Of a stretch of DNA of 64,000 bases, positions 16,354 to 53,800 are shown piece by piece. Position 1 is the first letter of the stretch. Every line of letters begins with the position of its first letter. The notes below the pieces were generated by a model. That model ran no database searches and had not been told where the DNA came from. It worked only from the letters and a program-made list of their open reading frames with translations. Origin of the DNA: Sphaerolaimus hirsutus. Its lineage: Eukaryota; Nematoda; Chromadorea; Monhysterida; Sphaerolaimidae. The position numbers and the translations under genes were made by a program. The stretch covers positions 28,289,927 to 28,353,926 of the forward strand of contig OZ038451.1 of NCBI GenBank assembly GCA_964036195.1. The letters run 5' to 3'.

Positions 16354-17622
16354 TAGGGTGTCAGTAAAATTTTTTCACTTTACGGAAAACGGAAAACGGA
16401 AAGGTAAAAAAAAAATTTCTGCCGGAAAACGGAAAACAGAAACGTAAAAAAATTTCACTCAGCGGAAAACGGAAAACGGAAAGGTAAAAAACATTGTCGG
16501 CCGGAAAACGGAAAACGGAAAAATGAAATGCCGGAAAACGGAAAACGGAAAGCAAAATTTTCACGGAAACAGAAAAAAAATAAAGTGAAATTAGCACGGT
16601 AATAGACAAATAATATTGCAGAAGGAAAACCTGCATGCAGGTTTGCCTGTTTGGCTTTGATTGTGGTAGCTGTACATTCTGCAACTATGTATCATGCCTG
16701 TAACTTCACTTGTAGTTCAAGCTTAACTGAACCAACAAAAAATCATCAAAAAGTAGCCATAGTGGCCATAGGAAAGGAAACACTATGACAATTTCACAGT
16801 CTAGAAGCAGTGGGAATCACTGATGACCCCTATGCAATTGATGACAACATTAAATAATAATTGATTAAATGTAACAATAAACAACATGAATGAATATGAA
16901 GAAAATGAAGGGGAATGAAACCAGTTGGCGATGATCATAAACAACATTTACATCGATAACTTCATCATGAGTGTCATGAATGAAGTTGAAGCTTTAGAAC
17001 TATATTACAAAGTCAAAGCTTTATTTAACCAATGTTCTATGAACATGAGGGAATGGCTGTCAAACTCCAGATCAGTCATGAATGAAATAGCAGAAAATGA
17101 CAGGAGTCCAAAGGTGAATAAAATTGCTGCAGTAATGGGCATGAAATAAAATCACTGAACAGACATGCTGGCAATATCAACACCAAAATTGCAAATTGAC
17201 AGCATCACAACACCAACCAGACAAAACTTGAATGAATTATTGGTGTCAGCATATGACCCAATTGGGTTCACAGCACCTGTTTCACTGACCCTGAAATCCC
17301 AGTCAATGCTGCTCCAAGAGACAAAAACAACACAATGGGATGAGCCAATTGAAGATAAATACAGATTAGAAAAACCATGGAAAATGCCAGAAAACTGAAA
17401 ATCAAGCCAGAAAATGGAAAAATGGCCTGGTAAAACGGAAACGGAAAGGTAAAAAATTTTCAGCAGCCGGAAAACGGAAAACGGAAAGGTAAAATTTTTT
17501 CGGCTGCCGGAAAACGGAAAACAGAAAGGTAAAAATTTTTCGGCTGCCGGAAAACGGAAAACGGAAAGGTAAAAAATTTTCCCGCGGAAAGGCGGAAACG
17601 GAAACGGAAATTTGACACCCTA
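16354..17622 (+). mobile_element. hAT-like element with BEL/Pao cargo (TAGGGTGTC family)
   Basis: TAGGGTGTCAG at the left and TTTGACACCCTA at the right, with a perfect 8-bp duplication ATCTGTAC (16346-16353, 17623-17630). Subterminal GGAAAACGGAAAAC arrays surround an internally deleted version of the reverse-transcriptase fragment seen whole at 37062-39622. Confidence 0.9.
16680..17400 (+). pseudogene. BEL/Pao pol fragment, internally deleted
   Basis: Recognisable pieces include NNIYIDNFIMS (reverse-transcriptase catalytic region, usually YVDD/YVDN in this superfamily), MREWLSNS and [14 protein letters not shown], all typical of BEL/Pao polyproteins. Stops and a deletion after about 16850 break the frame. 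The fragment lies wholly inside the hAT-like element and is non-functional as retroelement coding sequence. Confidence 0.85.
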
Positions 17623-18029: not shown

Positions 18030-18050
18030 CTGTGGGGAAATGGCAATTTA

Positions 18051-21070: not shown

Positions 21071-21722
21071 TAGGGTGTCAAATTTCCATTTTCCATTTTC
21101 CATTTCCGTTTTCTGCAGGCAAATTTTTTCCGATTTCCGTTCCGTTTTCCGGCTGCTGAGATTTTTTTTCCGTTTTCCGTTCCGTTTTCCGGCAACATTT
21201 TTTTCCGTTTCCGTTTTTCCGGCTCATTTTCCGTTTTCCAGCTAAATTTTCAGTTTTTCCACCTTTTTCCGTTTTCTGCCTCTATTTCCAGTTTTTCTGC
21301 TTTTTTCCATTTTCCGCCTCAATTTTCCATTTTTCCGCCTCATTTAACCTTTTTCTGGCTCAACTTTCTGTTTTCTGATCAGCCAAACTGGTAAAAATTC
21401 ATGCAGATTGTCAATGATGTAAAAAAATTTCTGTTTCCAGCAAAATTACTGCAAATTTTTGCCACTTCCAGCAAAATTTCAGCCAATTTTATCTGTTTTC
21501 CGGCAAAATTTCAGCAAGTTTTTCCATTTCCATGCAAATTTGATTTTTCCGTTTCCATTTTTCCGGCCTCTTTTTCCGTTTTCCGGCCGCTGAAATTTTT
21601 TTTCTGTTTCTGTTTCCGTTTTTCGACAAGTGTTAATTTTTTTCCGTTTTCCGTTCCGTTTTCCGGCCGCTGAAATTTTTTCCATTTCCGTTTTCCGTAA
21701 AAAATTTTTTTTTGACACCCTA
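21071..21722. mobile_element. hAT-like element, TAGGGTGTC family, no cargo
   Basis: TAGGGTGTCAAA and TTTGACACCCTA ends, with a perfect 8-bp duplication GCAGTGGC (21063-21070, 21723-21730). The interior is TTTTCCGTTTTCCGG-like arrays with no BEL fragment. It is shared with 50259-50991, so it inserted before the duplication. Confidence 0.9.
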
Positions 21723-22204: not shown

Positions 22205-22714
22205 GTCACTAGTCACTAGTGCCATGGCGCCATTCCGTCACTAACATTTCACAAACACTCACCCCTTAAGTGGCAAACAAGAAAAATTACTTCTGCAAAT
22301 TTTAAAATGCACCCTTTGCTTTTACTTTTCACACACTTCACATGCTGGTTAAGTATGTTTTTAAGAGAGGGGTGGGGGGTAAAGTTCCAAGTTGCGTAAA
22401 AGCTTTACCTCCATTGGAAATTTCAATTTAGGTGAATTTTATGACATCACAATGACGTCATCACGGGAACTACAATTGTCAAAAATTTACAAATTTTAAT
22501 TCACCCTAAGTAAATTTTCTAATGGAAGCATTTTTGAGGTAAAGTTTTTTATGCAACTTGGAACAGGAAAACCCTCCTCTGTAAAACATCCTAAACCAGC
22601 GTGAGAAGTGTGCAAAAAATGAAAGCAAAAAGTGCATTATAAAATTTGGAAAAAATATTTCTCAAAGGGGGTGGGTAACAAGGGCAAACCATCTGGAAAA
22701 AAGTATTTAAATAT

Positions 22715-25293: not shown

Positions 25294-25370
25294 TAGGGTG
25301 TCAAATTTCCGCAGGCAAATTTCCGTTTTCCGCAGGCAAATTTTTTCCGTTTTCCGTTCCGTTTTGTGGG
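25294..25370. mobile_element. End fragment of the TAGGGTGTC family
   Basis: TAGGGTGTCAAATTTCCGC followed by TTTTCCG motifs, with no right terminus. The same truncated piece is at 55317-55372, so truncation predates the duplication. It lies just beyond the exon-1 donor of the duplicated gene. Confidence 0.65.
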
Positions 25371-25408
25371 CTGCATGATATAGACTTTTCTGAATAAAAC
25401 ACCCCAAC

Positions 25409-25562: not shown

Positions 25563-25670
25563 GGCGTTTTCGCAACGCTATATACTTGGCAGCCGAAATG
25601 TGAAGATGCATGTGTCAGTCTGATAACTTGTGAAAGTACTCGCGCGTGGCTCAAAACACTTTTGTATTTA

Positions 25671-30800: not shown

Positions 30801-33800
30801 CTTGTTGTTGGAAAGTTAAATACCTGAATTACATGAGTCTACAGACTGCACCCATACAATGAATTATGTTTAAGATTTACGAGAATAACTCCCCCCTCGA
30901 AAACATCTGAGGAAAAAATAACTCCCCTGGGGTCTTATTCGAGGATTTAGGGTGCATTATTTTTGACAAACATTGATCAAATGTCGATATATAAAGGTGA
31001 ATTAGTTGATCTCAAACCGGGATCCAAGCGGTACAACGAGTCTCGCACAACTGTGACATTTTCTAGCCCATACACCGACAAAATTAACTGCCATTTGAAG
31101 TGCATTTGAACACGCATCGGCACCAGACCAAAATGTGGAATTACAGCTTGCAGTAAAAAGCAAACGTAAAATTCCACCGCAAAATTAATTACATAGACAA
31201 ATTTATGACAAGCCAAGGGTCTCCTAGATTTTGACCCTCCGGGGGTTGGATAGATAGCTGAGCGGCCCCCGGGATAGATAGATAGCTGGATAATAAACTG
31301 GCACTGTCATTAGCGGAGATCGGAAATGATTTACTCTGATAAACACAAATGTGTTTTAAACACATTTATCAGTATCCAAAATTTCGCCCGTAAAGTAGTG
31401 TCCGTGGCTAGTTTTCCCCAAACATTGAAATTCTCCCTTCTAAACCTCGAGAAAGCCCCGTGAACGTTCCCAAAAAATTTCCTTCAGCTATGCAGGGGTC
31501 TCGAATGGGGGGGGGGGGTTGGGGGGGGGGTTACCCCCCCCCCAAACCGCCCAGCTATCTATCTATCCCGGAGGCCGCTCAGCTATCTATCTATCCCGGA
31601 GGCAAAATTTTGGGCTACTACCCCCTAAACCCCCCCCCAAATCGCCCAGCTATCTACCTATCTGGAGCGATTTTTCAGAAACTATACCCAATTTTCGCTC
31701 AAAATCGCTATTTTTCATACCTATATATAGATTTTCACCTCCAAAATCACTGGTTCATGCGTCTAACTGCCTATTTTCAGCTATTTTAAGTACTATATGC
31801 TCTTGTATACCCATTTTGAGCTATTTTACACCTACTTTTAGCGATTTTTCTCCCTTTTCTTCCTTCTATGCCCCGAAAAAGCCAATATATCGAACCACCA
31901 CAACCCCCCCCCAGAAAATTTTTCAGCTATCTATCCCTCCGGAGGAGCGATTTGCTATCCATCCAACCACTCGGAGGGTCAAAATTCAAGATACCCCTGC
32001 AGCTATGTATCCCTCCGGAGGATCCATTTGCCAACTATTCAACCCCCGGGGGTGATAATTTTGGAGACCCCCGTCGCAACCAGGAACCCCCCAACCTTTT
32101 ACAACGGCGTCAGTATCCGTATTCAACGCATCAATGTCAAATTCCGCGGCCATTTCGGAAACTATTTGCGAATCCTGAACGCCAAGGCCGCTGGAAACGT
32201 CGTCCGCCGGGGGCAGAGTGTAGTAGCGGATTTTGCCGCTGTTCCAATCTTGCAATACCTGTATGTAAGGGAAAAGTGAACTTTTTTGGGAAAAGTTGAC
32301 AAGGGAACAAATTTTTGGGCAACTCGATGTGAGGGAATTAGGGTTGGCCGATGTTTTTTTTAAAACGTTTTTTTTTTTTAAACGTTTTTTTTTTTAAAAA
32401 ACATGACCTCCGAAATGTTTTTTTTTTTAAAAACATCGGCCGAAATACAGTACTAAGCACTAGGTATTTTGCAAAATTTTTGCGCGCAAGCGCGCAATTT
32501 CACACACAAATTGACATTGGTGGTTGTTTTCATTGGTTTTGTTGCATTTTTAGTATCAAAACATCCATTTCTATGTGCTACCATGGGTGAATAAGCCGAC
32601 ATATGTTGCTGTAATATATAATATTGAGGTAATGTGCTTCCATGTACCTCCACAGTGTGTAACTTCACTCCCAAAGTAACAACCTCCTTTTATAACCCTG
32701 TTTGATCACCATTCCGTGCCAAACTTTACCTGAAGTCACGAACATTCGACTATAAGGCGATATACGAACGATATGTCGACAAAAAATGGATATTTTTGAA
32801 ACAAATCACCACTTATAATGCTATCCCATGGCTCCACAGCCATTATATGGTCATATTTAACATCACAGAGTATTGCCAGTGTCTGATATACCTATATATG
32901 TTGACACTAGGTCATATCTGGGAGCTTTTAAAAAAAACGTTTTTAAAAACAAACAAACATCGAGTTAAAAAAAACGTTTTTTTTTCCAACCCTACTTCCT
33001 ATTAGGTATTTCCTCGGAACTGAGGAACGGAACGGGGTTTATTCGAGGGAACTCGAAACGGGGTTTATTCGAGGGGCTTTATGCATTATTAATCATTTTT
33101 GCTGTCCATCGAACCCTCGCGAGGGTCAAAATCATGGATCCCCCGACATACAAATCAATCACCATACCCATAATTCATCAAAAACTGGAACAATAACAAA
33201 ATGACATCGTAAAACAACCTTTTTGGCGGCGGCGTTCAAATCCGGCTTGGCGCCCTTGCGCAGCTTGCCCGTCTTGCGCGCGATCAGCGACAGGAACTCG
33301 GAGCTGTCCGCGAACTCCCCGATGCGGTACAGCAGCATCAGCTGGGGTGGGGGCAATTGAAGTGGCATATTGAAATTTGCAGTTGAAAGGGGGAGGCACT
33401 CTCACTCCGAAATCGACCGGTTATCCCGGAGGCGATTTTCTAACTAACATACCCTGATCCATTTGGAGCGATTTTTAAAATAGAAATTTAGCTCAAATTT
33501 GTGCACATTTTGCCCATTTTCACTTTCAAAATTACTAGTTCATGCGCTTTTTACTCATTTTCACCTTCTTTTGACTATAAATGTGCTTGTATACTTTTTC
33601 ACATATTTTAAGTGATTTTCCACCATTTTCTGCCTACACACCCCGAAAAAGCCTTTATATCGAAGCCCCCCCCCCCGCAGAAAAAAATCCAGCCATCTAT
33701 CCCTCCGGAGGAGCGATTGCTATTTTTCTATTCAACCCCCCGGGGGTCAAAATCCAGGAGCCCCCTGGATGCCGATCCAGAAGGAACTGGGGTGCCCACA

Positions 33801-36800
33801 GACACCCCCACCCCAACCCCAAACCAACAGTTTTCCTACTGCACCGATTCACAATGGCCTCCACAGGGATCACAGGATCGTCCAACTGCTCAACTTTGAC
33901 AGCGTTTTTAAGGGCCAAATCCGCAGGCGACAATTGGCTGTCCAGAGAGAGCACCATGCCGGGGGAATCCAGCAGGCGAATGTGGCGACCTAGTTCGATC
34001 TCTTGCAGACCTCTGGGAAGTTTTTTTTTTTTTTTGGGGGGGGGGGTAAAGTGACGTGATGGGAAAGTGACTGAATTACACTTGGTAAGTTTTCAGTGGC
34101 CACGACAACTATTACATCATCTCATAAAGTTTATGTTCTGAACACATGAGTTCAGGGGTAGGAAAGGGGGGTTGGGGGGTGGCTACCATCCCTATATAAT
34201 GAACCCGCGAACCCCCCCAGAAGTTTTTTTCATTCATCTATCCCTCAGGGGTCTCCTAGATTTCGGCCCTCCGGGGGTTGGATAGGTAGCAAATCGCTTC
34301 TCCGGAGGGATAGATAGCTGAAAAAATTATCTGGGGGGGGGTTCGCGGGGGTTCACTATATAAGCTTTTTCGGGGTCGAAGAAGAAAAGGAAGAAAAGGG
34401 TAAAAAATCGCTAAAAGTAGTTGAAAAACGGCTAAAAATAGGTATATAAGCACATATATAGCCAAAATAGCCGAAAACAGGCAATAATGAACGTGTACTA
34501 ACGATTTTGGAGGTGAAAATATATTAAAAAAGCATGAAAAGTAGTAATTTTGAGCAACAATTTGGGCAAAATTTCTCAAAAATCGCTCTGGATAGGTATA
34601 TAGCTGGGCGATTGGGGGGGGGGGTTAGGGGATAGTAGCCAAAAAAATTGCCTCCCCCAACTCCCCCTAGGAGACCCCTGTTGGCAATAGTGGTGACTAA
34701 AATTTTATGTTTCAGTTTGTTCGTCGAAATGAATTCAAATTTCAACTGCAAACCAAATATTCAAGAAACAGTGACACATTGAAACGCATGATCAACTTAT
34801 ACAAATTTCGGTACTGTATCAAAAGATCAAGTACAAAAATGACGTCAAAACTAGGGTTGGCCGATGTTTTTTTTTAAACGTTTTTTATTAAAAAAAAACG
34901 TTTTTTTTTTTTAAAAACACGACGTCCGAAATGTTTTTTTTTAAAAAAAAACATCGACCGAAATTTTTAGTACTAAGCACTAGGTATTTTGCAAAATTTT
35001 TGCGCGCAAGCGCGCAATTTCAGACACAAATTGACATTGGTGGTTGTTTTAATTGGTTTTGTGGCATTTTTAGTATCAAAGTATCCATTTCTATGTGCTA
35101 CCATGGGTTAATAAGCCGTCATATGTTGCTGTAGTATATAATATTGAGGTAATGTGCTTCCATGTACCTTCACAGTGTGTAACTTCACTCCCAAAGTAAC
35201 AACCTCGTTTTATAACCTTGTTTGATCACTATTCCGTGCCCAACTTTACCTGAAGTCACGAACATTCAACTATAAGGCGATATACGAACGATATGTCGAC
35301 GAAAAATGGATATTTTTGACACAAATCACCACTTATAATGCTATCCCATGGCTCCACAGACATTATATGGTCATATATAACATCACAGAGTATTGCCACT
35401 GTCTGATATACCTATATATGTTGACACAAGGTCATATCTGGGAGCTTTTAAAAAAAACGTTTAAAAAAAACATCGAGTTAAAAAAAAACGTTTTTTTTCC
35501 AACCCTAGTCAAAACACCCTATCATTGAGTTGAGTTTTTAAGTCGTTTTCCCAAAAAAATCCCCCCAAACCCACTTAGTAATCCCAGGCGTGGCGCCCAC
35601 ATTGCAAGCCCTTTTCCTTTTCAACGAATTAATCACTGAGCTTTTTCCGACATTCGGGAAGCCCACAACGCCCACTCGAATGCTAGTTTTCACGTCGTGA
35701 TGTCGACAATAATTGCCCAATAATTTCATGATCAATTCCGCACCGACGCACGTGCTTGGGGATGATTGTTGCTTTGTCGACTGGGCGAATGAAGTGCGAC
35801 CCTGGGATTGGAAGGTTTTTGGCAGGTTGCCAAGTGGGGACATAAGTTGTGTGTTAGATTATTGGGCCCACACACGCTAGTTGACATCGACACCAAATGT
35901 CAACTGGTGCCGATCCCGATTCAAAGCTTGCTGACCAGTGGACGGACGACGTTCAAACGCACGATTTGAATTAGGAACAGAACCAGTTGACATTTCGCAA
36001 GTCAGCATACGATAAATTTTTTTGGGAAAAGAGGTGAAGAATAAACCTAATTAGGTATAATATGGCTTGTCGGTAAACGGTACGGTAGATTTCCATTTTT
36101 CGGTAAACCATACGGTAATTGTTAAAAGTTACTGTAAACGGTACAGCACGATAAATTTTCTAATTTTACCGTATGGTGCGGTAAATTACCGCCAAAAACC
36201 GACCCCAACACGCTGCGAAACCTCAAACAAAGCAAAAATTGCACAAACCAGATGTTTTTCCTGCTGCTGAGTGGCAGCTTTGAAAGCGATAGTGGGAAAC
36301 TGACGCCGCAAATATTTCAGCCACAATTCCACATTTTCCTTTGGCACTAAATCGATTTTATTCAAAAGCAAAACTAGTCGTTTATTCGATCCAATTATCA
36401 TTTCTTCAGTTTCAACATTGCGACTGCCCAGGGGATCGCGCGCGTCTAATACCTGGAATAGAAAATGTATTTACCCATATTTTTATGGGTCAATTCAGCA
36501 AGTTGAGAAGTGAAAAACCATTATATAAGTAAGGAGTAAAGAGTTAAACGAAATGTAAGTTTATAAGTGAGAAGTTAAAAGCAAAACGAATTTCTATACA
36601 CCGTATTTCCTCGAAATACCCCCCCTCTCGAGACCATGAAACAATCACCCCCCCCCCCCCAGATTGAGTGTAAAAAGAACGTACATGACAAATACTGCAG
36701 TTTGTGTTCTGCGTAGTGCAGAACACACGTGAAACAATGTCGTATTCACGTTAGAACAGTGTTTATACCATCTACGTACTAATATTAGTATACAGGAGTC

Positions 36801-39800
36801 TATACATGTCAGTTATTGATGCATTTATCTACCCCAGTGTACATCACAAACGACGATGTTGTACTAGGATTTGAAAAAATTTCTGCCGAAATACGAACGC
36901 CCCCCCCCTCGAAATACCCAACCTCGTTTAACCCCCCCCCTCTCGGGACCACTATGAAACAATCACCCCCGGGGGGTATTTCGAGGAAATACGGTAAAAT
37001 TGAAGAAAAAAAAGTGAAAAGTGAAGATCAATGTAAAAAGTCAGTAAATATTGGTATTACGTAGGGTGTCAAATTTCCGTTTCTGTTTTCCGTTTCCGCC
37101 TTTCCGCAGGAAAATTTTTTACCTTTCCATTTTCCGGCAGCCGAAAAATTTTTACCTTTCCGTTTTCCGTTTTCCGGCAGCCGAAAAATTTTTACCTTTC
37201 CGTTTTCCGTTTTCCGGCAGCTGAAAATTTTTTACCTTTCCGTTTCCGTTTTTCCGGCCCATTTTTCCGTTTTCCGGCTGAAAAATTTTTACCTTTCCAT
37301 TTCTGTTTTACCAGGCCATTTTTCCATTTTCTGGCTCGATTTTCAGTTTTCTGGCATGTTTCCATTGTTTTTCCAATCTGTATTTATCTTTAATTGGCTC
37401 ATCCCATTGTGTTGTTTTTGTCTCTTGGAGCAGCATTGACAACTGGGATTTCAGGGTCAGTGAAACAGGTGCTGTGAACCCAATTGATTCAAGTTTTGTC
37501 TGGTTGGTGTTGTGATGCTGTCAATTTGCAATTTTGGTGTTGATATTGCCAGCATGTCTGTTCGGTTATTTTATTTCATGCCCATTACTGCGACAATTTT
37601 ATTCACCTTTGGACTCCTGTTGTTTTCTGCTATTTCATTCATGACTGATCTGGAGTTTGATAGCCATTCCCTCATGTTCAGAGAACATTGGTTAAATAAA
37701 GCTTTGACTTTGTAATATAGTTCTAAAGCTTCAACTTCATTCGTGACACTCATGATGAAGTTATCAACGTAAATGTTGTTTATTTTCATTGCCAACTTGT
37801 TTCATTCCCCTTCATTTTCTTCATATTCATTCATGTTGTTTATTGTCACATTGAAATGGTATTTTATGACTGCTCCCAAAATTGCTGGGCTGCAGACAAG
37901 TCCAAACAGTACACGTTTAAAACAAAGTACTATAAGTTATTTTCAGTTACTGGTTTTGAGGCATCTTTCAGCCAGAAAAATTGTGTGTAGTCTCTAGCTT
38001 GGTTAGGGTTGGAAAAAAACGTTTTTTTTTAACTCGATGTTTTTTTTAAATAAAAAACGTTTTTTTTTAAAAGCTCCCAGATATGACCTTGTGTCAACAT
38101 ATATAGGTATATCAGACAGTGGCAATACTCTGTGATGTTATATATGACCATATAATGTCTGTGGAGCCATGGGATAGCATTATAAGTGGTGATTTGTGTC
38201 AAAAATATCCATTTTTTGTCGACATATCGTACGTATATCGCCTTATAGTCGAATGTTCGTGACTTCAGGTAAAGTTTGGCATGGAATAGTGATCAAACAA
38301 GGTTATAAAAGGAGGTTGTTACTTTGGGAGTGAAGTTACACACTGTGGAGGTACATGGAAGCACATTACCTCAATATTATATACTACAGCAACATATGAC
38401 GGCTTATTAACCCATGGTAGCACATAGAAATGGATACTTTGATACTAAAAATGCCACAAAACCAATGAAAACAACCACAAATGTCAATTTGTGTGTGAAA
38501 TTGCGCGCTTGCGCGCAAAAATTTTGCAAAATACCTAGTGCTTAGTACTAAAAATTTTTCGGACGTCATGTTTTTTTTTAAAAAAAAACGTTTTTTTTTT
38601 AATAAAAAACGTTTAAAAAAAAACATTGGCCAACCCTAAGCTTGGTCATGCAATCCTATTTGCAAAAATGCCTTTTCAATATCAGCAATTAATGATAGAT
38701 TGCCTGCCCTGAACCTCAGGAGCAGGCCCAGTGCTAATGGTGTTGTAATTGGTCCTCTAAAAAGGCACTTGTTGAAACTGGGCTTACCTGCTGACCCGTC
38801 GTACACGATTCTGCATGATGTCGATTTGCCCGGCGTGATTACTGGCTGGTGTGGCAGGTAATGAATCCCCTTGTTGTCTGTTTTGTCATCACAGATCTCA
38901 ATTATTCCCTTTTCTAGTTGGTCATCCAAAACTTTCCGGTATTGTTCGAATAAGTTTGGATCTTTGTTGAATTTTCTTATCAGTGATTTAAACCGCGCCA
39001 AGGCTTCTGCTTCACTGATACTCTCTTTATACAGCCAGTCAATATAGTATCGTTTGTTGTTGTTGTTGAATTTTATGCTATTTATTATCATCTCCTCTGC
39101 AATGTCGTCATCAATTGCATAGGGGTCATCAGTGATTCCCACTGCTTCTAGGCTGTGAAATTGTTGTAGTGTCTCCTTTCCTATGGCCACTATGGCTACT
39201 TTTTGATGATTTTTTGTTGGTTCAGTTAAGCTTGAACTACAAGTGAAGTTACAGGCATAATCCATAGTTGCAGAATGTACAGCTACCACAATCAAAGCCA
39301 AACAGGCAAACCTGCATGCAGGTTTTCCTTCTGCAAATTTGTCTATTACCGTGCTAATTTCACTTTATTTTTTTCCGTTTCCGTGAAAATTTTGCTTTCC
39401 GTTTTCCGTTTTCCAGCATTTCATTTTTCTGTTTTCCGTTTTCCGGCCAACAATTTTTTTTTACCTTTCCGTTTTCCGTTTTCCGCTGAGTGAAATTTTT
39501 TTACCTTTCCGTTTTCCATTTTCCGGCAGAAATTTTTTTTTACCTTTCTGTTTTCCGTTTTCCGTAAAGTGAAAAAATTTTACCTTTCCGTTTTCCGTAA
39601 AAAAATTTTTTTTGACACCCTAGTATTACGTAGATAAAATTGTACCACAAGTCTAAATAATAGAAATCCAACCTCAAAGACGACATCAGCTCTTTCAATG
39701 ACTTTCTTAACTTCATTGGCATACGTTTTAGTCCCAAGTTTGCTGGGTGCTTTCGCTTGACGCTCGCGGCTTTTCGTTTGAGCCTGAATTTTTTTTAAAG

Positions 39801-41779
39801 TGACAACCTGGGAATGTTATGTGAAAAGTGACAACTTGAAAACATCAATACCGAATTACCTCGAAATACCCCCAGGGGGTTTATTATTTCGCCAGCAAAA
39901 TTTGAGGGGGGGGGGGATAATTCGAGGGGGGTTTATTCGAGGGGGGGGGTCTATTTTTTCGCCAGAAATTTTCGGAAATTCCCCATACGCAGACGAAGAA
40001 AAATCGAACAATCACATAGATGTGTTTATAGACATATATTACCGTATATACACAAAAACCCTTCCCTAACGTCACTTAATCATCAGTTTTAACGTGTGTT
40101 CTGCATTGTACAGATCACAAACTGCGGTATTTGTCATGTACGTTCACGTTACACTCAATTTTAGGGGGGTATTTAAATACAAAACGGGGGGGTTTATTAT
40201 TTCCTCGGCCGAAATTTCGGGGGGTATTTCGAGGGGGGGGGGTAATTCGAGGTAATACGGTATTCTTCAAAAGATGCAAAATCGAAAACACTGGCAAACC
40301 CGCTGAAAAAGAGTTCAAAATTTTACCTGTTTCTTTTCAAAAATGACTTTTCAATTTTTTTCAAAAATAGTTTCAAATTTTCAAGCTCATTTTTTTGCGT
40401 TCCATCGTCACACTGACCTCGTTAGATTTCTGAAGTGATTCCGCTCTGTTTGCCAAATCGGCCAAAGTTGCAGGTTCTTTGGATCCATCAGTATCTTTTG
40501 AAGCATTTTTCCGCGCCTCAGTCACTTTTTTTTCACGGTCTGCCTGAAAATAAATTCTTTTCTATGGATATGTAGTAACATCACAAAGTACTGACATACC
40601 TGATATACCTATATAAATGTATTGGCCAATCACCATATTTGCTTTGAAAAACATCCCGGTTCAAAAAAAACATATTGTTTTCTAAAGGGCGACAAAAACT
40701 CAACTTTTCCGACGCTACAATGTGCCTACACACACTAGTTTTCACCGTGACTTCGTGTGAAAACTGAAATTTTTTCAAATGCAAATTTATGAGCACGGTT
40801 GACTGATTGGCGCTACGCACACTGAAGCCGAAATATTCGGCATACGCACGTTTTTGACAAATGCCGAATTAAATGCTGAATAGAAAAAAACTTGCTGAAC
40901 TCAAATCGTCCGTACTCTTGAAAATTAGGCGGTTTGTCAATTCAGCATGTATTTCAGCATTCAAAAGATGCGTACACTTTTTCATGCGGAAACCATTCGG
41001 CAAAATCAAATGAAATGTTGAATGCTGATTACGCTCAAATTCGTCCGAATTCGTCCAAATATCGTGCGCACGTTTTCAAAATTCAATATGGCAGCCCCTA
41101 AAATGCCGAATTTAAAACGTCCGAACGGCAATTTTTCAATTCGGATTCGGCAGATGAAAACGTGTGTATGCCGAATATTTCGGCTTCAGTGTGCGTAGCG
41201 CCATTGAATTTAAATTAAATTTGAATTTACATTAATAAAAGTTAAATTTACAAATTTGAAAACTAGAAGACATATAGTACACAATAAGAGTAGGCTGAAT
41301 GTGGCCATGTGGCCATTTCAGTTTTCACACATGTCACGGTGAAAACTAGTGTGTGTAGGGCCATTAGGGTTCAAACCGGATGCTGATCTCGAAATTTGAA
41401 AATAACAATCCGAATAAAATGCACGCAATCCTGATACTTAAAAATCGATTATCTAGCCTAGAAGTGCGTTTTAGACCTTTTTGTGAAAGAGTGAGATTAA
41501 AGATTTTTTGCCCAAAATCCCGATCCCGGAAATTATGAATGCCAATCTCAATCCGGATCCGGAAAAGTCAACCCCATTTGAACCCTACCCTAATCACATC
41601 AAATCCGACCCTTGAAAATCCTTAAAAATGTACCTTTCGCCTATCCTTAGCCGCTACCCTAGCAGCCTCTTTCACCTGAGCAACATCCTGGCGCACTTTT
41701 TCCGCCTCCTTCAAAATGTCCTCCTTAAATGGACAGCTATTTGGCACGTGTATGGGCTTGGGGCCGCGCTTGGCTGCAC
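27722..41779 (-). CDS. GNL3L: Nucleostemin-family GTPase (GNL3/GNL3L), N-terminus missing
   Basis: A nucleolar, circularly permuted GTPase that acts in large ribosomal subunit maturation. Eleven minus-strand exons (41634-41779, 40418-40543, 39673-39783, 36249-36452, 35575-35801, 33829-34012, 33219-33341, 32096-32258, 30390-30466, 28171-28390, 27722-27807) join in phase to give 554 residues plus a stop. In order they show the VPNSCPFKE segment, VLDARDP (G5), LNKIDLVP (G4), GFPNVGKSS (G1 P-loop), ATPGIT (G2) and LLDSPGM (G3). A C-terminal domain with [14 protein letters not shown] and a lysine-rich tail follow. The permuted motif order plus TQQQ after G4 separates it from GNL2 and LSG1. The Lys/Arg-rich first segment expected upstream of 41779 was not located. 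Introns are full of mobile elements. Confidence 0.93.
28171..28390 (-). CDS. GNL3L: GNL3L exon: acidic then basic tail
   Basis: Starts after TCAATCAG with [14 protein letters not shown] and ends in [12 protein letters not shown], a probable nucleolar-localisation stretch. Donor is GTTGGT. An AGCGCC-rich stretch encodes an Ala/Gly/Pro linker and resembles the GCGC repeats elsewhere in the window. Confidence 0.8.
28582..28654 (-). tRNA. tRNA-Lys (anticodon CUU), copy 3 of array
   Basis: 73 nt cloverleaf on the minus strand. Acceptor stem TCCCGGT pairs with ATTGGGA (with G-U pairs), discriminator G. D-arm TAGCTCAGTCGGTAGAGC, anticodon loop ACTCTTAAT, T-arm GTGGGTTCGAGCCCCAC. A/B boxes are intact. 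A T5 run about 5 nt after the 3' end (28573-28577) would stop RNA polymerase III. Confidence 0.95.
28787..28859 (-). tRNA. tRNA-Lys (anticodon CUU), copy 2 of array
   Basis: Same mature sequence as the copy at 28582. A TTTT tract follows the 3' end after GTTTACC (minus strand), a pol III terminator. Confidence 0.95.
28992..29064 (-). tRNA. tRNA-Lys (anticodon CUU), copy 1 of array
   Basis: Identical mature tRNA. Upstream DNA differs from the other two copies, with fewer shared bases, so this is probably the ancestral unit. A TTTT terminator follows. Confidence 0.95.
29314..30358. mobile_element. CAGGGGTCTCC-family element with nested hAT-like insert
   Basis: Family motifs (CTATCTATCCC, CCGGAGG, ATCGCTCC) flank a nested element at 29562-30076. 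Ends are worn: ATCTTGAATTTTGACCC at the left and CGAGAGCCCTG at the right, with near-duplicate flanks ACCGTCAA/ACCGTCAC. Confidence 0.5.
29562..30076. mobile_element. hAT-like MITE, CAGGGACGTA family
   Basis: CAAGGACGTATCCAGG at the left and CCTGGATACGTCCCTG at the right, with a perfect 8-bp duplication GTACTAAA (29554-29561, 30077-30084). A block of about 65 bp near the left end (GGCTGCAGCC...CCCGGAAA) is tandemly doubled. Confidence 0.85.
30390..30466 (-). CDS. GNL3L: GNL3L short exon
   Basis: 77 nt, acceptor CCATTGCAG, consensus donor GTAAGT. It encodes [20 protein letters not shown]-type acidic linker after a split Glu codon. Confidence 0.8.
30643..30955. mobile_element. Decayed TIR element related to the CCGTATT family
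   Basis: CCGCAAATCCTCGAATAAG at the left and TTATTCGAGGATTTAGGG at the right, with poly-C tracts inside. It lies in the intron 30467-32095. Confidence 0.5.
31493..31999. mobile_element. hAT-like MITE, CAGGGGTCTCC family
   Basis: CAGGGGTCTCG at the left and GATACCCCTG at the right, with a perfect 8-bp duplication CAGCTATG (31485-31492, 32000-32007). It is inside a GNL3L intron, about 100 bp from the exon at 32096. Confidence 0.85.
32096..32258 (-). CDS. GNL3L: GNL3L exon: DWNSGKI motif
   Basis: Acceptor TTACATACAG, donor GTTGGG. It encodes [20 protein letters not shown] then an acidic [14 protein letters not shown] stretch, the conserved C-terminal block of nucleostemin proteins. Confidence 0.9.
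32339..32994 (+). mobile_element. hAT-like element, TAGGGTTGG family, copy 1
   Basis: TAGGGTTGGCCGATG at the left and TTCCAACCCTA at the right, 656 bp. Subterminal AAAAACGTTTTT arrays are present, and a GCGCGCAAGCGCGC palindrome lies at about 32481. No matching target duplication is visible. It ends 80 bp upstream of the exon that starts at 32258. Confidence 0.8.
33219..33341 (-). CDS. GNL3L: GNL3L exon: [13 protein letters not shown] motif
   Basis: 41 codons, acceptor CACCCCAG, donor GTTGTT. It encodes [20 protein letters not shown] and [17 protein letters not shown], the conserved helical region after the GTPase core. GC content is clearly higher than in the introns. Confidence 0.9.
33418..33775. 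mobile_element. Decayed CAGGGGTCTCC-family MITE
   Basis: TATCCCGGAGGCGATTTTCTA at the left and CAAAATCCAGGAGCCCC at the right, with CTATCCCTCCGGAGGAGCGA inside. It fills most of the intron 33342-33828. Confidence 0.55.
33829..34012 (-). CDS. GNL3L: GNL3L exon: G3 motif
   Basis: Acceptor ACTTCCCAG, donor GTTGGT. Starts by completing the Lys after ATPGIT, then [19 protein letters not shown] with the DxPG (G3) element, followed by [20 protein letters not shown]. Confidence 0.92.
34246..34680. mobile_element. hAT-like MITE, CAGGGGTCTCC family
   Basis: Perfect termini CAGGGGTCTCCTAG and CTAGGAGACCCCTG. No target duplication is seen (CTATCCCT versus TTGGCAAT), perhaps because it landed in another family member whose left half is at about 34135-34245. 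Confidence 0.75.
34852..35507 (+). mobile_element. hAT-like element, TAGGGTTGG family, copy 2
   Basis: 656 bp, with a perfect 8-bp duplication GTCAAAAC (34844-34851, 35508-35515). Nearly identical throughout to 32339-32994. Its right end lies 67 bp from the exon at 35575. Confidence 0.92.
35575..35801 (-). CDS. GNL3L: GNL3L exon: P-loop (G1) and G2
   Basis: Acceptor CAATCCCAG, donor GTGGGT. It encodes [20 protein letters not shown] and [19 protein letters not shown], then [11 protein letters not shown]. The P-loop GxPNVGKSS is intact. Ends within the Lys codon completed in the exon at 34012. Confidence 0.95.
36249..36452 (-). CDS. GNL3L: GNL3L exon: G5 and G4 motifs
   Basis: 68 codons, acceptor TATTCCAG, donor [24 protein letters not shown] (G5) precedes [16 protein letters not shown] (G4) and [10 protein letters not shown]4 and G5 ahead of the P-loop show the circular permutation. 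Confidence 0.95.
36601..36994. mobile_element. TA-target MITE, CCGTATT family
   Basis: CCGTATTTCCTCGAAATACC and GAGGAAATACGG termini in the 3.2-kb GNL3L intron. Confidence 0.7.
37383..37995 (-). pseudogene. BEL/Pao pol fragment, C-terminal part
   Basis: [20 protein letters not shown], the YVDN form of the catalytic motif C, and [19 protein letters not shown]. Upstream pieces match the fragments at 52000-52400. Several stops and frame changes are present. RNase H and integrase are not seen. Confidence 0.85.
38004..38638 (-). mobile_element. hAT-like element, TAGGGTTGG family, copy 3, nested
   Basis: 635 bp, inverted relative to copies 1, 2 and 4, with a perfect 8-bp duplication AGCTTGGT (37996-38003, 38639-38646). 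The related element at 51459-53354 has the uninterrupted sequence TCTAGCTTGGTCATGC, giving a direct empty site. Confidence 0.95.
38647..39301 (-). pseudogene. BEL/Pao pol fragment, N-terminal part of RT
   Basis: An uninterrupted frame of about 218 residues. It contains [60 protein letters not shown] and [14 protein letters not shown] (catalytic motif A Asp). These are diagnostic of BEL/Pao polymerases. It is cut at 38646 by the nested element. No gag or protease segment is recognised upstream. Confidence 0.9.
39673..39783 (-). CDS. GNL3L: GNL3L exon: [12 protein letters not shown]
   Basis: 37 codons, acceptor AAAATTCAG, donor GTTGGA. It encodes [19 protein letters not shown], which leads directly into VLDARDP of the next exon, as in all nucleostemin relatives. 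Confidence 0.92.
39851..40260. mobile_element. TA-target MITE, CCGTATT family
   Basis: CCGAATTACCTCGAAATACC and GAGGTAATACGG. It makes up about two-thirds of the intron 39784-40417. Confidence 0.75.
40418..40543 (-). CDS. GNL3L: GNL3L exon: coiled-coil linker
   Basis: 42 codons, acceptor TTATTTTCAG, donor GTCAGT. It encodes [16 protein letters not shown] and [16 protein letters not shown], similar in position and charge to the linker before the GTPase domain in family members. Confidence 0.8.
40733..41362. mobile_element. TIR element, CCTACACACACTAG family, with nested palindrome
   Basis: Left CCTACACACACTAGTTTTCA and right TGAAAACTAGTGTGTGTAGG. Inside, GGCGCTACGCACACTGAAGC (about 40809) and its complement (about 41203) delimit a second TIR element built of ATGCCGAAT motifs. 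A relative is at 59390-60298. Confidence 0.7.
41634..41779 (-). CDS. GNL3L: GNL3L exon: VPNSxPFKE segment
   Basis: Acceptor CATTCAAG, donor [26 protein letters not shown] is the conserved block that precedes the coiled coil in nucleostemin proteins; [16 protein letters not shown] follows. The first two bases complete a codon from an unlocated upstream exon. Confidence 0.88.
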
Positions 41780-41819
41780 CTTGAATGGGTGGATTTTTAT
41801 GTGTTGTGGGGGATGTGTG

Positions 41820-42475
41820 TAGGGTTGGCCGATGTTTTTTTAAACGTTTTTTTTAAACATGACGTCTGAAATGTTGTTTTTTTTAAAAAAACATCGGCCG
41901 AAATTTTTAGTGCTAACCACTAAGTATTTTGCAAAAATTTTGCGCGCAAGCGCGCAATTTCACGCACAAATTGACATGGGTGGTTGTTTTCAATGGTTTT
42001 GTGGCATTTTAGTATCAAAGAATCCATTTCTATGTGCTACCATAGATAAATAAGCCGTCATATGTTGCTGTAGTATATAATATTGAGGTAATGTGCTTCC
42101 ATGTACCTCCACAGTGTGAAACTTCGCTCCCAAAGTAACAACCTCTCTTTATAACCTTGTTTGATCACTATTCTGTGCCAAACTTTACCTGAAGTCACGA
42201 ATGTTCGACTATGAGGCGATATACGAACGTGTCGACAAAAATGGATATTTTGACACAAATCACCACTTATAATGCTATCCCATGGCTCCACAGCCATTAA
42301 ATGGTCATATTTTACATAACAGATTATTGCCACTGTCTGATATACCTATATATGTTGACTTTAGGTCATATCTGGGAGCTTTAAAAAAAAACGTTTTTTA
42401 TTTTAAAAAACGTTGTTTTTTCAAAAAACTTTTTTTTAAACATAGAGTTGAAAAAACGTGTTTTTTCCAACCCTA
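41820..42475 (+). mobile_element. hAT-like element, TAGGGTTGG family, copy 4
   Basis: 656 bp with a perfect 8-bp duplication GATGTGTG (41812-41819, 42476-42483). Its end is only 40 bp from the acceptor of the GNL3L exon at 41779, within or beside the usual branch-point zone. Confidence 0.92.
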
Positions 42476-47160: not shown

Positions 47161-47660
47161 TAAATATACATGCGTATAGAGTGACAGGCACGCCATTCGG
47201 TGTATTTTGTAGAGAATTGACACTACAAGGACTGATTTACTTATAAAACATCAGTGCGATGGAAAAATGGGTGAAATTTGGCCTACAAGCGCACTGGCAC
47301 GGAGCCATATTATGCATGCTGGTGGCATGAAATCATATTTACATAGAAACGTTCTCATGAAAGGATGCAAGAGTAAAAATGGGGAAAAACGCATTACGCC
47401 CAACAAAGTGCAAGGTGTCAAGGGAGAAACTAAAAAGTGAATGGTTTAATTGGGGAATTATCACAAACACCCACCAAAAAAATTTAAAAATGGGTTTCCA
47501 AAAAAGGAAATCATGATTTCCAGAAAATTTATATATAAATGAAATTTGTTTTAACTCAACCTTGATATTTTAGGTGCATTTTCTTTAACTAATGAATTCT
47601 GTCATGCAGCATCAGTTTTTATAGGTTAGTTTTTCAAACTACCCAAAATCCATTACTGAC

Positions 47661-47834: not shown

Positions 47835-50800
47835 CTGTGGGGAATGATGGCCATTTACCGTATTTCCTCGAATTACCCCCCGGCGAGGACGGGGGTATTT
47901 CGAGGGGGGGGGGGTATTTCGAGGAAATACGGTAGTTAAATTCAATGTTTGCATTCAGTCTACACAGTAGTTTTCAACGGCCGCTCGTTGTCAACCAATA
48001 TTTTGAAAACTCATAAATCTGCTTGAATGTATTTCACTCAACCACAATGAGCATAAGTTGTATAAAATTGTTGGACATAAGTTTTGACAAAAACTGTTGT
48101 TTGATAAATTTTGGAAATGTCAAAAAATTCTTTCCACAGGGACCATGATTTGCTCCTATTAAATTGCTGAGTGAAGCACCTCCCTTTATGTTGAAAGAGT
48201 CAATTGTGTTCAAAAAATTCAGCAATTCAAGTTGACTAACTGGAAGTGCCAAGTCATGCATTGCACGTGATTTTGAAGCTGTATTGATGTAAACCAGTTG
48301 GGCCCTGAGTTGTGTTACATTGGCAATGTGCCCACACTGGGTGAATGCATCCACAGGTGTGGCTATGTTTACACCGGATATCAGTATGCATTTCCCGCAA
48401 TGATATACCACATTTGTACCTGTGTGATATGCAATCTATTTTTGACTGTATTTTTTATCATCACATGTATTGCATAGTTCTTAAAACGTATTTACGTTTC
48501 CTCGATAAATACTCGAGTACTGCGTAAATATGTTTATGTTTCCTTGCGTAAAAATACCGGTACTCACATACTCATGTACGTTTTGAAAGTACACAAGTAC
48601 ATAAAACGTATTTCAGATCTGCTTTTATACAAGATTTTTCAAGGAATAAAGGGAAAAAAGATAAAAAATAATAAAGATAAGGAAAATATCCAAAATATCA
48701 TCAAAAATAGACAAAAACAAATTAACTAGTGAATTTGAAGGTAAAAAGTTGGTAAATTAGTGATTTTGTGCCAAAGATTTGCAAAATTTCTGATAAATAC
48801 CAAGTTTTACGTTTTCTTGGGACAAAAGTTATTTTCTCACATTTACTCAAGAGTAAAAGTAAAAAAGTTTTACTTTACATTCTCTGTACTCGGAGGTGAG
48901 TAAAAAATAACCTCTCAATACCTACTTTACGTTTACATTTACTTTCAAAAAAGTTCAGTTCTTTTAACAACTCTGGTGTATTTATGTAAGACAACTATGC
49001 CCACTGTGCAGGCTGTTTATATTGATGTGTTTATGTGTTTTATGCAAAAAAACAATTCCTCACACTTCTTGTTGCAGGCTGCCAATTACCTGGGATAGTT
49101 GCATGCTCTTCACAGATTTCATTGAAAGTTTTCTGGGCTCCGGCACCTTCTGGTTTACGACACATTTGTTCTGAATTTAGATCGTAGCTCAGTGGATCAG
49201 GGACAGATTGCAATGTACACACTTGGTCTATCTTTGTGTAAGAGAATCCTGTATAGAGGTAAAAGTATAAATAAAGTGCTTTTTTTGACCAATAAATGTG
49301 TGAATATGTCAATGCTTGTATTTAAGTAGTGTATAAAACACAATAATGTGCCACTGGAAATCTTTGGGGCAGAACCCCCCAAAAAAGTGTACACCAACAA
49401 CTAGAAAAAAGCTTGCACAGACATTTTATGCAAGTACAAATAAAGTTACTCAATTTACATTTCCACCAAAAAAGCAGATACTGGACAAAATAAAAGTATT
49501 TTACAAGTGTATTTTTTGCATGGGTGAAAAAGTAAAAGTTTGGTACTTTTAACAATACTGCTCAAAAGGGAAACACAGAAGAAAACTTTTATCTTGTTGT
49601 TGAACCATCAAAAAATTGTTTGCCGACAAAGATATCTTCCAAAATATTCTACAAAGACATTATTTTTGTAGTGAAAAACAAACCAATGCAATTCTCCTGT
49701 CGATGGCACAATGCAGCACCAGAAGTGTTGTAAAGAATAGAAAAACAAGATACACATAAATATAAGCCCAACGTTATTCCCAACTGCTCCAGTGTCAAGT
49801 TTACTTTCAATTGGCAAAGAGTCAAAAAAGCTCTTTATGGAACTTGGCCACATCATGTCTTAAGTAAAACTTTCAAAAATTCAGTTTATCAATATGTGTA
49901 CAGAAAATGACCATTCTTCACAACACTACATTTGAGCTTGTGGTCGACTTGGGCGACGAGCAGAGGCTCCCCTTTCTCGGCCCTGGCATATGCCCCAGCC
50001 CGCTGCAATTGCTGGTGCTCCTGGGAACAGCTATAACTGTGTTCTGGCCGTGCACTGAACCCGTTGCCTGGGTTGAGTTTTCAGAAGATTTTTAAATAGG
50101 GATTAATATTTATAAACACGTGCCCTAACTAGTCTGGCCCCTATTTTTGTTTTCACTTCGCATGCCTATCTCCGGTTGTGGGAGGGGTGGAAAGTAATAT
50201 TTGTGAGGTATATAGGTGCAACCCCCAACTACTCCTCATGAATGGATGGGGCAGTGGCTAGGGTGTCAAATTTCCGTTTTCCGTTTCCGTTTTCTGCAGG
50301 CAAATTTTTCCATTTTCCATTCCGTTTTCCGGCTGCTGAGATTTTTTTTCCATTTTCCATTCCGTTTTCCGGCAACATTTTTTTTCCGTTTCTGTTTTTC
50401 CAGCTCATTTTCCGTTTTCCGGCTAAATTTTCAGTTTTTCTGCCTTTTTTCCGTTTTCCGCCTCAATTTCCAGTTTTTCTGCCTTTTTTCCATTTTTCGC
50501 CCCAATTTTCCATTTTTCCACCTCATTTTGATTTTTTCTGGCTCAACTTTCTGTTTTCTGATCAGCCAAACTGGTAAAAATTCATGCAGATTGTCAATGA
50601 TGTAAAAAATTTTCGTTTTCCAGCAAAATTACTGCAAATTTTTTCCACTTCCAGCAAAATTTCAGCCAATTTTATCCGTTTTCCAGCAAAATTTCAGTAA
50701 GTTTTTCCATTTCCGTGCAAATTTGATTTTTCCGTTTCTATTTTTCCTGCCTCTTTTTCCGTTTTCCGGCTGCTGAAATTTTTTTCCATTTCCGTTTCCG

Positions 50801-53800
50801 TTTTCCGACAAGTGCAAATTTTTTTTCCGTTTTCCGTTCCGTTTTCCAGCCGCTGAAATTTTTTTCCATTTCCGTTTCCGTTTTCCGACAAGTGCAATTT
50901 TTTTTTCCGTTTTCCGTTCCGTTTTCCAGCCGCTGAAATTTTTTTCCGTTTCCGTTTCCATTTTCCGTAAAACAGTTTTTTTGACACCCTAGCAGTGGCT
51001 ACTCACTAAAGAGGGGGTCGCCGTATATGTTGCACAGGCCCGGCCCCCAATTGATTTCTTACGCAACGGCTTGAAAAAGGGGCGCCACAGGGAATAGGCA
51101 CCATGGCGCGGCACCCTATGGCTACCTCAAATGGCGCCAGCAGTGAAATGCAGCTTGCTGACAGCTCGCTGCCAACTTTCAAGTGCCTTGGCAGGTTTCA
51201 GCTCTCTGACAACCAGTGCAACACATGCTATTAATATGTGTGCAGCTTGCTGACAACTCGCTGCTAAGTGTGCAGCTACTGTGAAAACACATGCCAGCTC
51301 GCTGCCACTTGCTGACAACTCAGTTCCAACTCGCTGCCACTCGCTGACAACTATGTTCCAACTCGCTGCCAACAGTAAACAAATTGTTGTCAGCAAGTTG
51401 GAGGCAAGTTGTCAGAGAGATACATTTCAGTGTCACTAGTCACTAGTGCCATTGCGCCTAGGGTGTCAAATTTCCGTTTCCGTTTTCCGTTTCCGCCTTT
51501 CCGCAGGAAAATTTTTTACCTTTCCGTTTTCCGTTTTCCGGCAGCCGAAAATTTTTTACCTTTCCGTTTTCCGTTTTCCGGCAGCCGAAAAAATTTTACC
51601 TTTCCGTTTTCCGGCAGCTGAAAATTTTTTACCTTTCCGTTTCCGTTTTTCCGGCCCATTTTTCTGTTTTCCGGCTGAAAAATTTTTACCTTTCCGTTTC
51701 CGTTTTACCAGGCCATTTTTCCATTTTCTGGCTCAATTTTCAGTTTTCTGGCATTTTTCCATTGTTTTTCCAATCTGTATTTATCTTCAATTGGCTCATC
51801 CCATTGTGTTGTTTTTGTCTCTTGGAGCAGCATTGACAACTGGGATTTCAGGGTCAGTGAAACAGGTGCTGTGAACCTAATTGGGTCATATGCTGACACC
51901 AATAATTTATTCGAGTTTGTCTGGTTGGTGTTGTGATGCTGTCAATTTGCAATTTTGGTGTTGATATTGCCAGCATGTCCGTTTGGTGATTTTATGTCAT
52001 GCCCATTACTGCGACAATTTTATTCACCTTTGGACTCCTGTCGTTTTCTGCTATTTCATTCATGACTGATCTGGAGTTTGACAGCCATTCCCTCATGTTC
52101 ATAGAACATTGGTTAAATAAAGCTTTGACTTTGTAATATAGTTCTAAAGCTTCAACTTCATTCATGACACTCATGATGAAGTTATCGACATAAATGTTGT
52201 TTATTATCATCGCCAACTGGTTTTGTCCCCCTTCATTTTCGTCATATTCATTCATGTTGTTTATTGTCACATTTAACTGGTATTTTAGGACTGCTCCCAA
52301 AATTGCTGGGCTGCAGACAAGTCCAAACAGTACGTGTTTAAAATGAAGTACTATTTAGTTATTTTCAGTTACTGGTTTTGAGGCATCTTTCAGCCAGAAA
52401 AATGGTGTAGTCTCTAGCTTGGTCATGCAATCCTATTTGCAAAAATGTCTTTTCAATATCGATCTCAGGAGTAGGCCCAGTGCTAATGGTGTTGTAATTG
52501 GTCCTCTAAAAAGGCACTCGTTGAAACTGGGCTTACCTGCCGACCCATTGTACACGATTCTGCATGATGTCAATTTGCCCGGCGTGATTACTGGCTGGTG
52601 TGGCAGGTAATGAATCCCCTTGTTGTCTGTTTTGTCATCACAGATCTCAATTATTCCCTTTTTCTAGTTGGTCATCCTAAACTTTCCAGTATTGTTCGAA
52701 TAAGTTTGGATCTTTGTTGAATCTTCTTATCAGTGATCTAAACTGCACCAAGGCTTCTGCTTTTGCCATGGGCAGGTCACTGATACTCTCTTTATACGGC
52801 CAGTCAATATAGTATTGTTTGTTGTTGTTGTTGAATTTTATGCTATTTATTATCATCTCCTCTGCTATTGTCATCAATTGCATAGGGGTCATCAGTGATT
52901 CCCACTGCTTCTAGACTGTGAAATTGTCGTAGTGTTTCCTTTCCTATGGCCACTATGGCTACTTTTTGATGATTTTTTGTTGGTTCAGTTAAGCTTGAAC
53001 TACAAGTGAAGTTACAGGCATGATCCATAGTTGCAGAATGTACAGCTACCACAATCAAAGCCAAACAGGCAAACCTGCATGCAGGTTTTCCTTATGCAAA
53101 TTTGTCTATTACTGTGCTAATTTCACTTGTTTTTTTTTCCGTTTCCGTGAAAATTTTGCTTTCCGTTTTCTGTTTTCCGGCATTTCATTTTTCCGTTTTC
53201 CGTTTTCCTTTTTCCAATTTTTTTTTACCTTTCCGTTTTCCGTTTTCCGCTGAGTGAAATTTTTTTACCTTTCCGTTTTCCGTTTTCCGTAAAGTGAAAA
53301 ATTTTTACCTTTCCGTTTTCTGTTTTCCGTAAAAAAATTTTTTTTGACACCCTATATGCGCCATTCCGTCACTAACATTCCACAAACACTCACCCCTTAA
53401 GTGGCAAACAAGAAAAATTACTTCTGCAAATTTTAAATTGCACCCTTTGCTTTTACTTTCCACACACTTCACATGCTGGTTAAGTATGTTTTTAAGAGAG
53501 GGGGGGGGGGGGTAAAGTTCCAAGGTGCGTAAAAACTTTACCTCCATTGGAAATTTCAATTTGGGTGAATTTTATGACATCATAATGACGTCATCACAGG
53601 AACTACAATTGTCAAAAATTCACAATTTTTAATTCACCCTGAGTAAGTTTTCTAATGGAAGCATTTCTGAGGTAAAGTTTTTTACGCAACTTGGAACAGG
53701 AAAACCCTCCTCTGTAAAACATCCTAAACCAGCGTGAGAAGTGTGCAAAAAATGAAAGCAAAAAGTGCATTTTAAAATTTGCAAAAAATATTTCTCAAAG

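Follow-up and report, generated by a model that had tools for sequence, protein, structure and literature searches.

How a reverse transcriptase (RT) comes to lie between the ends of a DNA transposon, and whether it was taken up once or several times, is the question raised by a stretch of 64,000 nucleotides from the nematode Sphaerolaimus hirsutus (contig OZ038451.1, positions 28,289,927 to 28,353,926 of the forward strand; hereafter the window). Three elements in it, here named A, B and C, hold the RT part of a BEL/Pao retroelement polyprotein between terminal inverted repeats (TIRs), and the original prediction, made without database searches, interpreted them as hAT-like transposons that had captured retroelement sequence and mobilised it. 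Our analysis supported this interpretation. It is highly probable that a hAT family acquired a piece of BEL/Pao pol a single time and then spread it, with the RT being carried as a passenger.

The three cargo-bearing elements were present where they had been predicted (Table 1), with exact ends: each is bounded by TAGGGTGTCA and TGACACCCTA, which are reverse complements, and the inverted ends extend over 10 bp in A and over 12–13 bp in B, C and the two cargo-free members D1 and D2. The exact TIR 10-mer was found 12 times in the window, where 30 simulations under a first-order Markov model gave 0.17 on average. The TIRs of hAT elements are short, 10–25 bp (PMC3942097; cited here, like the papers below, from parts of its text), and those of the window elements fall in the same range. 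The subterminal TTTTCCG arrays that had been predicted were also found, in the form of direct arrays with many CCGTTT hexamers (read as AAACGG from the opposite strand); counted over 300 bp at each end, there are 18 copies of this hexamer in A, 18 in B, 21 in C, 14 in D1 and 20 in D2, with a background of 0.51 per kb (both orientations) in the window outside the elements.

Target-site duplications (TSDs) of 8 bp had been claimed for all three elements, and they are perfect for A (ATCTGTAC/ATCTGTAC) and B (GTATTACG/GTATTACG), whereas the flanks of C (ATTGCGCC/TATGCGCC) are alike at only six of eight positions. The unoccupied site of C, ATGGCGCC, could be read where the surrounding DNA occurs a second time, within a direct duplication (14349–25670 versus 46846–55670) having a local divergence of 0.7–7.4% in the five stretches compared. 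This could be either a segmental duplication or two alleles assembled in tandem, and the comparison of occupied and empty site for C is valid under either origin. Element A was rejected as a clean empty-site case, as it lies inside a further insertion that the duplicate region lacks. The one later internal deletion that had been proposed was confirmed in A, which lacks about 590 bp and has a short filler at the break. The two predicted cargo-free members, D1 and D2, indeed have the ends without the cargo, but they represent a single insertion and not two, because they have a common TSD, GCAGTGGC, and common flanks within the direct duplication. At 25294 and 55317, the 5' end alone of a further member was found. 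The three elements of the window are thereby confirmed as a real observation.

With regard to the cargo, the Pfam family Peptidase_A17 scored above its cut-off in the window pieces of A and C. RVT_1 was recognised in the natural 388-amino-acid (aa) open frame of L016, a copy found elsewhere in the genome (this frame is called P0001 below), with an E value of 2.6e-6 and 27.7 bits, just under the cut-off of 29.6, and in the natural frame of the copy L018 with an E value of 5e-4. Only these two long frames gave an RT match in Pfam, the short window pieces giving none, and no RT match was found in PDB with the cargo pieces or with the 388-aa frame. AlphaFold models of two cargo pieces had mean pLDDT values of 49.9 and 37.4, too poor for a fold search, and the NCBIfam matches of a 242-aa piece lay far under the cut-offs and were disregarded. 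The cargo has a BEL-type RT together with a Peptidase_A17 region. A genome search with PF18701, which we take to represent the C-terminal region of BEL pol, yielded 1254 candidates; 150 of these were scored, many of them in open frames of about 2900 aa. BEL elements are abundant in this genome, and the very many copies having frames of that length suggest a recent spread. An RT-side piece of 1.8 kb, taken from upstream of the best-scoring BEL match (L071), was 43% identical to P0001 over 298 aa (E value 1.8e-81), and the two have in common the YVDN motif, presumably that of the RT active site. Judged from this comparison, the L071 BEL is a cousin of the cargo and not its parent.

The original prediction had described the cargo as the RT part of a BEL/Pao polyprotein without LTRs (long terminal repeats), gag or integrase. 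No gag, protease or integrase family was found in the cargo pieces scanned (LTR remnants were not separately searched), and the cargo ends inside pol, but about 170–210 bp inside the right array turned out to be hAT sequence. This stretch was at one point considered as a BEL protease end, which was rejected, the same DNA being present in the hAT elements L047, L043 and L048. No relative of the cargo was confirmed in the genome_contigs or viral_contigs collections, a phage search gave no match, and no array or TIR string was present in viral_contigs; an 18-mer TIR match in a Planctomycetota contig was, by our own estimate, at about chance level and was not used.

Evidence for a single capture came from the genome to which the window belongs (348.5 Mb, 762 contigs). 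With a cargo probe of 701 bp, 1244 first-look candidates were obtained and the best 40 were scored; one of these 40 was B, and all of the other 39 were read. Both TIRs (≤1 mismatch) were present in 39 of these 39 copies from outside the window, and an 8-bp TSD (≤1 mismatch) in 36. The copies had been picked by their likeness to the probe, a choice of which the TIR test is independent but by which deleted copies such as A are under-represented. BLAST of a segment spanning the border between array and cargo aligned through the right border in all 39 copies and through the left border in 38 of them, with L019 as the exception. Since the copies share their cargo–array borders, the cargo was captured once and then spread, and the claim that captured RT had been mobilised to at least three sites could be extended by 39 further places; cargo inserted independently at different points was not seen. 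Pairwise divergence among the first 29 copies ranged from 0.7% to 4.4%, with a median of 3.4%. These results show a single capture with fixed borders, dispersed to many places that have distinct 8-bp duplications.

A protein search with P0001 gave 4259 candidates, of which 106 were scored, and all 106 matches covered 386–388 of its residues at 93–100% identity, in open frames of 387–478 aa; the TIRs were checked in 39 of the cargo copies, and some of the 106 matches, with identical scores on small contigs, may be assembly duplicates. That the copies should instead be BEL elements, or have been retrotransposed, with the TIRs belonging to their LTRs, is hardly credible. We found no point in support of it, the same TIRs occur on cargo-free and on transposase-bearing elements, the TSDs are of 8 bp, and no BEL-length frame was present among the 106 scored matches. 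Nor did we see a full BEL element whose LTRs hold these TIRs, the one BEL pol piece that was read being kin at the protein level only.

The carrier could be identified from its transposase-bearing relatives. In a profile search of the genome for the hAT dimerisation family PF05699, 108 candidates were scored and 28 matches obtained, nine of which (L043, L044, L047, L048, L062, L063, L064, L067 and L070) lie inside elements having the same TIRs, arrays and a TSD (≤1 mismatch), with E values reaching 1e-15. The two best matches (L043 and L044) are among the nine and the third best (L045) is not; L061 has the TIR pair without a TSD, L057 has a single good TIR, and at the remaining 17 loci there was no such TIR pair within the 3.1–3.2 kb read, beyond which larger elements among them could end. 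PF05699 was the sole transposase domain searched. The TIR ends, the 8-bp TSD and the transposase sequence in same-TIR elements together show that the carrier is a hAT element. D2 could be aligned with the arms of L043 at 88–92%, so that the D insertion looks like an internally deleted relative, and a further D-like element adjoins the cargo copy L027. The hexamer AAACGG, which is dense in the arrays, is the one bound by the maize Ac transposase (PMC3260210), and the family may possibly be Ac-like.

Comparison with one of these relatives indicated where the cargo had been placed. By its arms, L047 is the closest relative of the cargo elements, at a mean arm distance of 0.187, compared with 0.28–0.31 for the other 11 cargo-free or transposase-bearing elements and 0.04 within the cargo group. 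On the left, its homology covers the array and stops near position 37343 of B; on the right it extends beyond the array as far as about 39200, while the BEL protein match starts at residue 72 of P0001 (about 39151 of B), and from these limits we placed the two junction zones (Table 1); the left one was mapped by eye from C and from the full copy L003 and is approximate, the arrays being repetitive. About 1.25 kb of BEL pol, as measured in L003, occupies the position of about 495 bp in L047. The latter is itself short, and its replaced stretch includes a transposase remnant (L047 289–522), at the position of which the RT fragment of the cargo elements is located. When a 119-aa transposase piece was used as the query, none of the 39 cargo copies matched at an E value of 0.01. 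A tree of the ends was built from the concatenated 200-bp arms of 42 cargo copies (the 39 together with A, B and C) and 12 other elements (the nine with transposase, D1, D2 and the neighbour of L027, L061 having been dropped as it has no TSD). In this sample, the cargo copies formed one clade with a support of 0.99, and with a support of 0.72 when using the right arm.

The same junctions bear on whether a whole BEL element could have jumped into a hAT copy and lost its LTRs, gag and integrase through deletions before the hAT spread, a route departing from the reading preferred here in the capture step alone. Long BEL frames are abundant in the genome, elements do nest here, as seen for the 635-bp element inside B, and one shared large deletion could mimic the pattern of a replacement. 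However, both cargo ends lie in the pol frame next to hAT sequence, thereby leaving no room for an LTR at either of them, and compared with L047 the hAT segment has been replaced and not merely interrupted. We consider nesting to be unlikely, though worth keeping in mind.

The RT frame itself has been decaying. Among 29 copies, 247 distinct variants were found in the L016 frame, 68 of which are synonymous, 163 replacement and 16 stop-creating, and 500 context-matched relocations of the variants gave 65.6 ± 6.0 synonymous changes and 12.9 ± 3.0 stops. The two other frames behaved alike, and the use of L018 or L029 as reference gave results in agreement. A stop at residue 312 is common to 17 of the 29 copies and four other stops are each common to 2–5 copies, so that stop-bearing lineages must have kept spreading; five of the 29 are free of stops in that frame, one of them having a large deletion. 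In the window, the differences between B and C are even over the codon positions (7/9/7 and 6/7/8). The neutral-like changes, together with the in-frame stop shared by more than half of the copies, identify the RT fragment as a passenger, with its frame decaying neutrally.

Some observations weigh against a single capture followed by passive spread. A matching TSD is absent in three of the 39 copies (L017, L021 and L039). When only the left arm is used for the tree, L047 falls among the cargo copies and the split is lost, and the single cargo clade that was looked for among the ends therefore stands for the concatenated arms and the right arm but not for the left. A direct BEL parent was not found, and the L071 piece, the one place read among the 150 scored, has no meaningful DNA similarity to the cargo. 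The autonomous partner suggested by the original prediction could be traced in part, as same-TIR elements with partial hAT transposase, but an intact autonomous copy was not found within the 3.1–3.2 kb read at each locus, the transposase matches in the same-TIR elements being remnants with a longest piece of 120 aa. Moreover, the pooled ratio of nonsynonymous to synonymous polymorphism (pN/pS) of 0.52 would, taken alone, hint at constraint and, together with the 34 of 106 scored copies having no stop inside the 388-residue frame (counted by eye), it could be taken to mean that the element has a functional RT which selection has maintained. The context-matched null does not support this and shows the value to be compatible with mutation bias, as both synonymous and stop changes were at neutral expectation. 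Selection on the RT was rejected on the grounds of these neutral-like changes and the shared stops, and such a role is very improbable.

A last point of this kind is a TIR-like 10-mer at the right junction (B 39149), with two mismatches in B and three in C, which could be expected if two neighbouring hAT elements had become fused round a BEL fragment. Such compound or tandem-insertion events have been proposed for plant Pack-TYPE elements (PMC8903248) and were seen in the compound element Ds-l4-483 (PMC3260210). Among the 39 genome copies, the best match near the right junction has two mismatches in 15 and three in 24; however, the copies share one ancestor and the 10-mer therefore counts as one observation, and among 400 random stretches of 210 bp, 83 also contained a match with two mismatches. 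The 10-mer is not followed by an array, unlike the situation at the real left TIR, the best TIR-like 10-mers at the left border have 3–5 mismatches, and the homology of the right arm to L047 extends past the array into the hAT interior. The compound-element route is thus disfavoured, and we regard it as improbable.

According to the reading that we prefer, a non-autonomous hAT family acquired about 1.25 kb of BEL/Pao pol once, from the RT to the first third of Peptidase_A17, in the central segment where its closest relative holds transposase sequence. Template switching inside a hAT copy, or the repair of a gap there, may have brought the piece in, a mechanism that has been suggested for Pack-TIR elements of animals (PMC8277862). 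An intact hAT transposase, provided in trans, would then have cut and pasted the copies by way of the TIRs and hexamer arrays, with the RT probably having no part in mobility. We also put forward, tentatively and as less than an even prospect, that the hAT family serves as an archive preserving and multiplying the polymerase of a BEL/Pao lineage that is no longer present as an LTR element in this genome. If so, a DNA transposon would have outlasted and outnumbered the retroelement that it took up where its own transposase had been.

Table 1. Positions in the window of the hAT elements, their cargo and associated features.
Feature	Position	Strand	Remarks
Element A	16354..17622	+	TSD ATCTGTAC; RT on + strand; internal deletion near 16850-16865
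D1, cargo-free, 652 bp	21071..21722	+	TSD GCAGTGGC
Unoccupied target site of C	22224..22231 (approximate)	.	In duplicated region
5' end only of a further member	25294..25370	+	Counterpart at 55317 in the duplication; inner boundary by eye
Intron of GNL3-like gene holding B	36453..39672	-	Splice-like GT and AG; limits counted by eye
TSD of B, left	37054..37061	.	GTATTACG
Element B, non-autonomous hAT with nested element	37062..39622	-	TIRs; 8-bp TSD GTATTACG; RT reads on - strand
Left arm of B, with TIR and TTTTCCG array (AAACGG on - strand)	37062..37343	+	L047 homology stops here (by eye through L003)
Left hAT/BEL junction zone of B	37343..37366	.	Ends of L047/array-like homology and edge of Peptidase_A17
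BEL/Pao pol fragment of B, RT to start of Peptidase_A17	37366..39151	-	Split by nested element
Nested 635-bp element of another family	38004..38638	.	TIR TAGGGTTGG; TSD AGCTTGGT at 37996-38003 and 38639-38646; empty in C
Right hAT/BEL junction zone of B	39151..39199	.	BEL match from P0001 residue 72; hAT DNA to about residue 56
Right arm of B: hAT-derived stretch, palindrome AAACCTGCATGCAGGTTT, array and TIR	39199..39622	+	Homology to L047, L043 and L048
TSD of B, right	39623..39630	.	GTATTACG
D2	50259..50991	+	TSD and flanks as in D1; D1 insertion copied by duplication
Element C	51459..53354	-	Same structure as B without nested element; TSD 6/8; empty site in duplicate
BEL/Pao pol fragment of C	51763..52914	-	Profile and alignment; ends placed by eye

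B is longer than C because of the nested element. The second family to which that element belongs, defined by the TIR TAGGGTTGG, is probably also hAT and has further copies at 32336–32994, 34852–35507 and 41820–42437; 8-bp TSDs (AGCTTGGT and GTCAAAAC) were seen by eye in two of the four copies. B itself occupies 2561 of the 3220 bp of an intron in a split GNL3/nucleostemin-like gene (35538–41852, minus strand), with its RT frame in sense orientation. The gene piece at 36186–36470, being the exon 3' of this intron, matched a PDB chain of guanine nucleotide-binding protein-like 3 with an E value of 9.9e-20; the exon 5' of the intron gave no match in a PDB search, and this exon and those further 5' are based on our reading and the splice sites. 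The perfect 18-bp palindrome AAACCTGCATGCAGGTTT, located beside the right array in the hAT interior at 39308–39325, 53071–53088 and 16627–16644, has a core that is retained in the transposase-bearing L043, L047 and L048, and is possibly a protein-binding site. Elsewhere in the window, three tandem 205-bp repeats at 28548–29151 each contain a tRNA-Lys(CTT) gene on the minus strand, and palindrome-rich repeats around AAAAGCGCCATGGCGCTTTT are found at 7403–7605, 11230–11400 and 12221–12429.

For plants there is ample description of TIR transposons capturing foreign sequence, whereas few multicopy captures have been published for animals (PMC8277862). The survey in that paper has four cases of multicopy animal Pack-TIRs (1.4%), and describes Pack-hAT-N8_XT of frogs, a hAT capture found on three chromosomes (Tan et al. 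2021, PMC8277862). The nematode elements are like these Pack-TIRs, the nearest kind described in the literature, in having TIRs of the hAT type and a foreign capture that, through repeated transposition, was amplified to several loci with distinct TSDs. They differ in that their cargo is retroelement pol with no parent found, and in that 106 full-length cargo matches were scored, whereas Pack-TIR cargo is by the definition in that paper not derived from transposable elements and has an identified parent. As the cargo here does derive from a transposable element, the element is not a member of the Pack-TIR class, although it works like a multicopy Pack-TIR with transposable-element cargo, and captures of this sort would have been missed by a survey using that definition.

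Another comparable system is maize Ds-l4, with Ds2, of the Ac/Ds group (Du et al. 2011, PMC3260210), which is likewise hAT and non-autonomous, has an 8-bp TSD and AAACGG arrays, and in which variable filler replaces the transposase, as it does here; the Ac TIR is (C/T)AGGGATGAAA and the TIR of the present family TAGGGTGTCAAA. Ds-l4 also includes a case of an LTR-retrotransposon polyprotein fragment, found in one compound element, whereas here a single RT capture founded a multicopy lineage. The plant Pack-TYPE elements (PMC8903248), which include hAT members, are likewise TIR elements without autonomy which take up and mobilise DNA, but those are plant elements with coding cargo for which tandem insertion is favoured, compared with the weak, array-less 10-mer at one junction seen here. 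With BEL/Pao elements (Belpaoviridae; PMC8742986, PMC3118150) the likeness is confined to the cargo, an RT-to-Peptidase_A17 pol fragment that is here found alone and has been moved as DNA between hAT ends. We recognised no report of a multicopy hAT lineage with BEL/Pao cargo in the open-licence PMC literature as judged by titles and the beginnings of abstracts; Repbase, which was not searched, may hold the family. RT fragments that are counted in animal genomes may be moved by DNA transposons. A single, highly multiplied capture and a relative that has kept transposase sequence in the replaced place make it possible in this family to test directly how the capture took place, in which order the events occurred and whether the cargo is a passenger. 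The family presents a clear, although not unprecedented, example of a mobile element being carried by another.

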